Assembly: GCF_037392515.1 (NCBI RefSeq)
Contig: NC_090291.1
Location: 28,444,001 to 28,508,000, forward strand
Origin: Haliotis asinina
Taxonomy: Eukaryota > Mollusca > Gastropoda > Lepetellida > Haliotidae
Direction of reading: 5' to 3'
DNA length: 64,000 nucleotides
Both the position numbers and the translations under genes were made by a program. The notes under the pieces were generated by a model. It was not told the DNA's origin. It saw nothing but the letters and a program-made list of their open reading frames with translations, and did not search any database. Below, in pieces: positions 21,409 to 24,400 of the stretch. Positions within the stretch are counted from its first letter, which is position 1. The number at the start of each line of letters is the position of its first letter.

Positions 21409-24400
21409 CTGCCAAGAGCTTGGGGTAAACTTGAAATGATGGGACCATAGCCTGCGGCGTTGTCATACAACTCAAACAATGGTGCTGCAACCAACTTGTA
21501 ATTCCTAGGTACTGCGAATAAAGCTGACAACAAAACAAGACATTGGATGCAGAAAACGCACTCAGAAGTCAATAGCTAAGTGTCTGTCATGGGTTGAACA
21601 AAAAGATTTGTTGTTTGTTTGAAATTTGACCTTGCCATCAGCATTAGTTCAGCTATATCACAGTTTCTCAAATAGTTGGTTGATAGCAAGAGAAACTATC
21701 TACACCGTCTGTAGCTTCAAGCAGAACAAAGTACAGACAAAAATATTTCATCATTAAGAATTAACAAGGGACCTGACATTTCACAATAGTCAACAATCTG
21801 TCAGGAAAGTGTAATATGCTGTAGATACCAATGGATCACTACCTAACATGCATATCAACAAGAGAACAGCTACTTCATGAGTGGAGTGAGTGTGTGAGTG
21901 AGCACAGTTAAACACTGCTCACAGCAAAATTACAGCAGTATTACAGCAGCCGAAATAGTCACACAAATCAGTGTTAGATTGCATTAGTGTGTGTGTAGCT
22001 TCCTGCTATGGTTACACCCTGTAGGAGGCAGAAACACTAGAGCTTCCTGTTGTGGTTAAACCCTGTAGGCAGCCATACAACACAAGCGATTCTTGCTGTG
22101 GTTAAACCCTGTAGGCAGCCATACAACACAAGAGCTTCCTGCTGTGGTTAAACCCTGTAGGCAGCCATACAACACAAGAGCTTCCTGTTGTGGTTAAACC
22201 CTGTAGGCAGCCATACAACACAAGAGCTTCCTGCTGTGGTTAAACCCTGTAGGCAGCTATACAACACAAGAGTTTCCTGCTGTGGTTAAACCCTGTAGGC
22301 AGCCATACAACACAAGAGCTTCCTGCTGTGCAGACAAGATCTCTCTGCTGTGTACAAATCCTACAGACGCCCATGCTAACATGCAAACTTACATTAATGC
22401 AGAAAATCAAAATAAAAAAAAATAGCAAAATGAAAGAAAACATCACATTCAAGAACACTAAATGAAAACAGAACTGAAACTAATGAGAGGCCAGAAATGC
22501 GAAATGTGAAAATCTCTCTTTCATGCTATTCCTATTTGGGGAAAGTTGTATGTCTTGCACAGGAAAACAATTCTTTTTTATTACGTAACTTCATGATAAG
22601 CTCAAAATTATATCACACATTCCTGTATACTGTTCGGCATAGTAACTCGCTCATTCAACATCCCTTTTTCCTTCTGTTTCCATGCTAACAGGCCAAGAAT
22701 TTTAAAAATCTGATGTAAATCCACAATGGTGTGTTACCATGTATTGCGGTCATGGTAATACATCCAACAAGTTCCTTTTTTTCACCTTTTTTGAAGTACC
22801 CATGTTAATGTATCAGAGTAATTATCCCCAATCTGCATGTAGCCATGATAACTATCAAACAAAACATGCGGCACTCTTAGTCTTCGCAACATAATAAAAA
22901 GTTGTAATGTTTGTCTTCTGTCCTTTCAGTTTCCAATTTTAATTGACCTAACAAAATAGGGGTCTGTCAATAATACATTTTAAGGGGTTTTACCAGGGCC
23001 TGTAGTGCAGAACATTTGGTTCTTTTTTCAATTACAGGATGTTCAATTTCTCATTAAAAATGGATACTATTATTATTTACCCCATGAGTATGTTACAAAT
23101 ATTTATTCTGCATCCAGTCTATATAGATACAAAAGCGTATCCCCATGCCACATAAAACTCTATCACATGCTATGTTTTAAAGCATCTCGCCTACAAAGGA
23201 AAGGGTGCTTCAGCTGTGTATCTATCATCTGGTATATATCCCTCATAAACTGATAAGAACCACATGCTAAGTTTCAAGTACCTCACCAACAGAAGAAGAG
23301 GCTGCTGCATCTCACCATGGTGAGGTCACTGTCACTTAACCTGTGTAAGAACTATGTGAAACCTATGTACATACCTTGGGCCGGCAGTTGCACCAAGCAT
23401 AAGCTTTTGTGTTCTTTGGGTCTGGTTATATGAGGTGGCACAAAGGGGTACTGCGAGACAAGAAAGCAAACTAAAGTCAAGCGCCATGTGAAAGAAGAAA
23501 CGCCACCTGTCTTACCTTTCTCTGGTAATTGTACCAAGAATAACCATTTGCGTTCTTTTGGCTTAGTAACATGTGCAGGCACATACGGGTACTGTTAATG
23601 AACAAAGGGGTCAAGGCATTGGAAACAAGAAACAATATCATTGACTTCTAGTATTATTAAACAATTCATCAGTTTGGACAATCACTACTCTGAATAGTTC
23701 ATGATATCACCAAAAGCATTTGTACAAAACAGTAATGGTAAGTCTGAATTCTGCTTCATAAATGCAGTGTGTAAAATGGCTGTCTTTCTCTATGTCTAAT
23801 GCACTGGGTTGCAGTGTGCACTTTTAGCTGTTTTGTCAGATACTGTTATGTATCAAAACCCAGTACTGTCAGTCATAGAAATGAAGAGTTAAAGGGTTAC
23901 CTCCCTTTCCCAGCTGATATCCTTAGGCCCCATTCAACCCAACAAAAGTACCAGAATCTGTACTCTACTGAATAAAGCGTAATCCCAGATATAACACGTT
24001 ATGTTTAACTACTTTCTAAAAGGCATTGTGTATTGACAGTTAATGAAGGCGACATCTCAGTGCATCATAAACTGGCCTGTAGAAGCAGTCCTAGTAGACC
24101 TAAGAGACCATAGGCTTTAAGTTCAGGGGTTCAATTTTTTTTTTAAAAGCGACTTGCCACAGGGCGAGTGATTGCAAGAAATTGTCCCAATTTCCCACTT
24201 GCTCTGATTTTATGACACAATGTTTGATATTAATGTTTACTGGACTATTTATCGAAGAGTGGAAATTATCTAGTAGTCCACCACAAGTAAGATACCATTA
24301 TTTGATTGCCCAAAATGAAAAACTGACTTGTCCTGGGCGTTGGATGATGGGATTTTTGAACCAGTGAAGTTGTTTGACAATGTAACCCAACTTTAACTGT

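Follow-up and report, generated by a model that had tools for sequence, protein, structure and literature searches.

A tandem pair of homologous exons in NUDT21 of the abalone Haliotis asinina, predicted to be used one at a time

Homologous exon pairs that swap one segment of a protein have been described for OGDH (exons 4a and 4b) and, as cited in the same paper, for alpha-tropomyosin, with branch points no farther than about 50 nt from the donor of the upstream exon (PMC7969005). A limit of about 50 nt for joint assembly of U1 and U2 is given for mutually exclusive exons (PMC7969005, PMC5740500), and branch point-to-donor distances this short are given for 57 human clusters (9%; PMC5740500). 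The sequence features used to recognize candidates are adjacency, similar length, the same phase, homology, the lack of an in-frame stop and GT-AG boundaries (PMC5740500). Since 6,541 human candidates found by likeness or annotation yielded 855 exons of high confidence (the atlas as a whole has 1,399; PMC5740500), likeness alone is a weak predictor of mutually exclusive use.

The exons described here, designated 5a and 5b, lie in NUDT21, the gene for CFIm25, in a window of 64,000 nt of the Haliotis asinina genome (NC_090291.1, positions 28,444,001 to 28,508,000). They resemble the OGDH and alpha-tropomyosin pairs in their homology, in the exchange of one segment and, as predicted, in the placing of the branch point. 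The 3'-end processing factor CFIm25 is highly conserved and is generally regarded as a single, invariant protein that governs the choice of poly(A) site through its level. We consider it highly probable that 5a and 5b are old, constrained duplicate exons under mutually exclusive splicing, the exclusive use being what we infer from the genomic sequence.

The NUDT21 locus and its surroundings

The window was found to hold six of the seven exon positions of a complete NUDT21/CFIm25 gene on the minus strand. The coding part of exon 1 (33190..33317, 128 nt) begins with the ATG at 33317 and ends at the donor TCT/GTAAGT, and is followed by exon 2 (27414..27614, 201 nt), exon 3 (26564..26627, 64 nt) and exon 4 (25107..25196, 90 nt), which ends in phase 0 with ...FEPPQ. 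The fifth position is occupied by both 5a (23516..23591) and 5b (23375..23450), with a gap of 65 nt between them (23451..23515), and exon 6 lies at 21409..21523 (115 nt). The last exon, coding for RFNFIYN and a stop, was placed at C12:28432629, 11.4 kb past the window edge, no other match to this motif with an acceptor being found in the 61 kb that follow exon 6; the last intron is thus about 32.8 kb long. The C-terminus of human CFIm25 is also FNFIYN. Spliced with either 5a or 5b, the gene encodes 231 residues with no internal stops.

The abalone protein is colinear with human NUDT21/CFIm25 (PDB 3bap, 3q2s and 3n9u chains) across human residues 40-219, and this region of 3bap chain A was aligned in one stretch with scores of 363.3 bits (5a) and 355.6 bits (5b). 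Pfam NUDIX_2 was matched with 252.8 bits by the 5a version and 247.2 bits by the 5b version, the cut-off being 27. Genome-wide family, protein and 217-bp DNA searches matched a single locus among the best candidates scored, and within the same scope the own-genome protein and DNA searches gave no retrocopies or paralogues recording a splice form. With NUDIX_2 over its cut-off, colinearity with human CFIm25, one locus and R63 kept, the gene was assigned as the NUDT21/CFIm25 orthologue.

Several other features were observed. Two minisatellites lie in the last NUDT21 intron, at 16122-17078 (90-bp units, leaving long open frames on both strands) and at 19633-20494 (39-bp units). Head to head with NUDT21, BACK and Kelch matches at 34448-37180 on the plus strand mark a KLHL-like gene, for which a BTB match was not reported and whose first open frame is separated from the start codon of NUDT21 by about 1.1 kb. 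At 44369-44791 on the minus strand, the C-terminal exon of a gene resembling purple acid phosphatase gave a Metallophos_C match; after it come a hydrophobic stretch and a run of arginines. At 61690-62621, open frames from 61690 and 62130 share a long initial translation that gives way to simple repeats; this pair is probably a recent local duplication. Elsewhere in the genome, six exon matches to the Egg_lysin family at C14:26671878-26918244 suggest a pair of genes and a further match some 230 kb distant. Two joined lysin exon peptides matched abalone lysin chains (E value of 2.2e-22), and the lysin-type sequences show clear divergence from the abalone lysins of solved structure. The presence of these abalone-type sperm lysin genes supports an origin in Haliotis or a close relative.

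Sequence and divergence of the exon pair

An earlier, sequence-only reading had proposed two 76-nt exons, 65 bp apart, coding for the same 25-residue segment, and these coordinates were reproduced exactly, each exon coding for 25 residues plus 1 nt. The intact frames, good splice sites and shared 0/1 phases ascribed to the pair were also recovered, with AG before and GT after each exon and both exons open. The donors of 5a and 5b alike match the consensus at 8/9 positions (6-8 of 9 for the other NUDT21 donors), and their acceptors have 12/17 and 14/17 pyrimidines, compared with 11-12 of 17 for the other acceptors scored, exon 7 being outside this scoring. Adjacency, similar length, the same phase, homology, the absence of in-frame stops and GT-AG boundaries were thus all found in the pair. 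The two exons differ at 22 of 76 nucleotides (5, 5 and 12 of these falling at first, second and third codon positions) and at 9 of 25 residues, the other 16 being common to both. In a tblastn search with 5a against 104 kb, made up of the window and 40 kb on the downstream side of the gene, 5a itself was recovered, 5b was matched with an E value of 1.5e-8 and the next match had an E value of 1.1, and the likeness of the two exons is therefore beyond chance. At low stringency, tblastn detected no third exon copy in the same 104 kb.

Comparison of 5a with 5b (Nei-Gojobori, 25 codons, one genome) gave a dN of 0.20 and a dS of about 2.2, a value that is near saturation and, over 25 codons, imprecise. 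The ratio of 0.09 nevertheless points to constraint on both copies, and the synonymous over nonsynonymous excess had a Fisher p of 0.0003 (counts rounded). One copy, 5b (or 5a), might instead be a decaying, unspliced relic with only the other copy in use. Consistent with a relic, 5b is farther from the human sequence (16/25 residues identical, compared with 20/25 for 5a), its changes including F175C, E181A and K182Q, and high-confidence support is missing for most of the human candidates (PMC5740500). Neutral copies were simulated (6000 per setting) and scored as passing when the splice sites and frame were kept and at least 16/25 residues were identical. For short neutral branches this test is weak: at 0.15 substitutions per site 27-32% of copies passed, the share falling to 3-4% at 0.3 and to about 0.5% at 0.4. 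At 0.6 substitutions per site, however, 0/6000 copies from 5a and 1/6000 from 5b passed, and at 0.8 and 1.1 none did (0/6000 each). Given this, together with the near-saturated synonymous divergence, the low ratio and the intact sites and frame, we regard a relic as unlikely. Because dS is near saturation, dN is low and simulated unconstrained copies almost never stayed intact, 5a and 5b both look old and selected.

Reading frame and spacing of the two exons

The prediction that splicing both exons would break the frame was borne out by reading the product. Double inclusion (152 nt) shifts the frame and leads to a stop in exon 6, 96 nt upstream of the exon 6-7 junction, giving a product of 217 residues with a foreign tail in which the exon 6-7 part is lost. 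Omission of both exons also causes a frameshift, so that use of neither or both yields no normal product. A stop at this distance from the last junction is expected to trigger nonsense-mediated decay, and transcripts carrying both exons would be predicted to be lost in this way; those carrying neither would have their frame broken likewise.

The unproductive both-or-neither RNA could also be read as a dose switch that lowers CFIm25, perhaps through binding of CFIm25 to repeats in the next intron, and the position of the double-inclusion stop ahead of the last junction fits such a switch. UGUA is the target of CFIm25, and the intron right after 5b contains a 46-bp tandem array of 7.3 copies (21997..22330, minus strand, 334 nt) with 7 TGTA on the transcript strand, where six near-identical units bear UGUA, making these possible candidate CFIm sites. 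Tethering of CFIm promotes MAT2A splicing (PMC8139829). The array, however, has 7 TGTA on the other strand as well, NUDT21 intron 2 is about equally rich in UGUA, and at least 7 UGUA were present in 45 of 2074 overlapping windows (104 kb, transcript strand), some of these being the array itself. With an unexceptional density and both strands equal, UGUA-based autoregulation via the array was judged weak at best. Double inclusion should, moreover, be hindered by the 65-nt gap, and a poison exon needs no protein-level constraint in both copies. We therefore hold a dose switch to be very unlikely.

Mutually exclusive use is also suggested by the spacing. Setting aside the first bases of the 5a donor and the terminal AG, adenines in the gap lie at +6, +8, +27, +29, +39 and +44 from this donor, so that all branch-type adenines are within 44 nt of it; in our reading, the best branch-like context is CTTGAC at +39. 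Any branch point among these candidates would lie closer than about 50 nt to the 5a donor, the range in which steric hindrance is expected. Judging from these distances, U1 and U2 would be unable to assemble together, the one on the donor of 5a and the other on the branch point of 5b.

The gap has both a consensus-like donor and a consensus-like acceptor, and introns of about 60 nt are spliced in some animals. It might accordingly be a minimal intron across which 5a and 5b are functionally joined. The joined product, as noted above, would be frameshifted, with a foreign tail and without its exon 6-7 part. Intron sizes were sampled in 16 myosin regions of the same genome, where introns were inferred and gaps of more than 600 nt left out, and a filter on sites (donor at least 6/9, pyrimidines at least 9/17) reduced 186 inferred introns, including 29 block gaps, to 87. 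The shortest believable intron among these 87 with fair sites was 105 nt. The single shorter call (1/87), of 30 nt, fell at a 12-nt dip within an open frame and was taken as an artefact. Unfiltered, 28 of the 186 calls came out shorter than 100 nt; small same-frame dips account for 23 and calls with poor donors for the other five. In chaperonin genes, the two smallest gaps between consecutive matches measured 105 nt and 131 nt, the first of which lies within a single open frame of 604 codons and may therefore be no intron. As a rough sample of two families, this survey is compatible with short introns elsewhere in the genome. The gap may be too short to splice, and we consider a minimal intron extremely unlikely.

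In the myosin genes themselves, thirteen matches to the same head segment (profile ~230-390) were observed within 310 kb at C5:73569138-73879366, with additional matches near 72.2-72.9 Mb of C5, the cluster forming a tandem myosin array.

No stabilising RNA structure was found in the 392 nt around the pair, which folded less stably than shuffled sequences (z of +1.87; 97/100 shuffles folded at least as well). The gap spacing, the divergence with constraint and the myosin intron sizes all fit, and so support, the predicted mutually exclusive use of 5a and 5b.

The exchanged segment and comparison with known systems

Human alignments placed the start of exon 5 at Y158, with Y160 as its third residue, in agreement with the sequence-only reading that the segment covers the equivalents of human Tyr158 and Tyr160. 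The change of the second Tyr to Phe in 5b was also found, position 160 being F. The contact with CFIm68 ascribed to these tyrosines in that reading is supported by the CFIm25 double mutant Y158A/Y160A, which loses binding to both CFIm68 and CFIm59 (PMC8139829). The exchange of Tyr for Phe at 160 is itself a mild change. The remaining differences between 5a and 5b are at 163, 165, 167, 171, 173, 175, 181 and 182 (human numbering). Two other human mutants affect residues outside this set: R63S is an RNA-binding mutant, and L218R also blocks binding (PMC8139829). R63 is conserved as R and is encoded by exon 2 rather than within the exchanged segment, and in the alignment position 218 is Ala in both abalone isoforms. 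Exon choice would probably tune either the Tyr158/Tyr160 surface, to which the large subunit (CFIm68/59 type) binds, or the packing of the core in this segment; that it affects the assembly of CFIm or the selection of poly(A) sites is speculative.

The large subunit was also considered. One search with a human query, which a diverged second gene could escape, found one CPSF6/7-type RRM gene, at C14:46.66 Mb (two matches, one gene), scoring 109.5 bits to CPSF6 and 83.1 to CPSF7. An apparent overlapping exon in this gene (both matches covering query 46-65) was rejected, as the overlap was a one-sided extension into the intron. Because one CPSF6/7-type gene was found, diversity of the CFIm complex may arise in the small subunit. 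Vertebrates have one CFIm25 and two large subunits, CFIm68 and CFIm59. We suggest tentatively, and with considerable doubt, that this plan is reversed in the abalone, with one large-subunit gene and two CFIm25 isoforms differing at the contact, the choice of exon setting assembly and 3'-UTR length by tissue or stage. With an isoform pair that differs only within residues 158-182, a single gene would uncouple RNA binding from pairing with the large subunit, and 5a and 5b would offer a ready comparison for how the large-subunit contact tunes alternative polyadenylation.

Among the matches listed, in titles and the starts of abstracts, and with subscription papers and preprints mostly outside this scope, no description of a mutually exclusive pair in NUDT21 was found. 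Mutually exclusive duplicated exons as such are a known phenomenon, to which the NUDT21 pair would appear to belong. The OGDH gap is 118-131 nt in birds and mammals (PMC7969005), whereas that of NUDT21 is 65 nt, with a branch point that is predicted only. Duplicate or mutually exclusive exons serving isoform choice, as proposed for NUDT21, are also described for AOX of Crassostrea virginica (PMC5589949) and for COQ-2 (PMC7434440); these two are metabolic enzymes, whereas NUDT21 is a polyadenylation factor.
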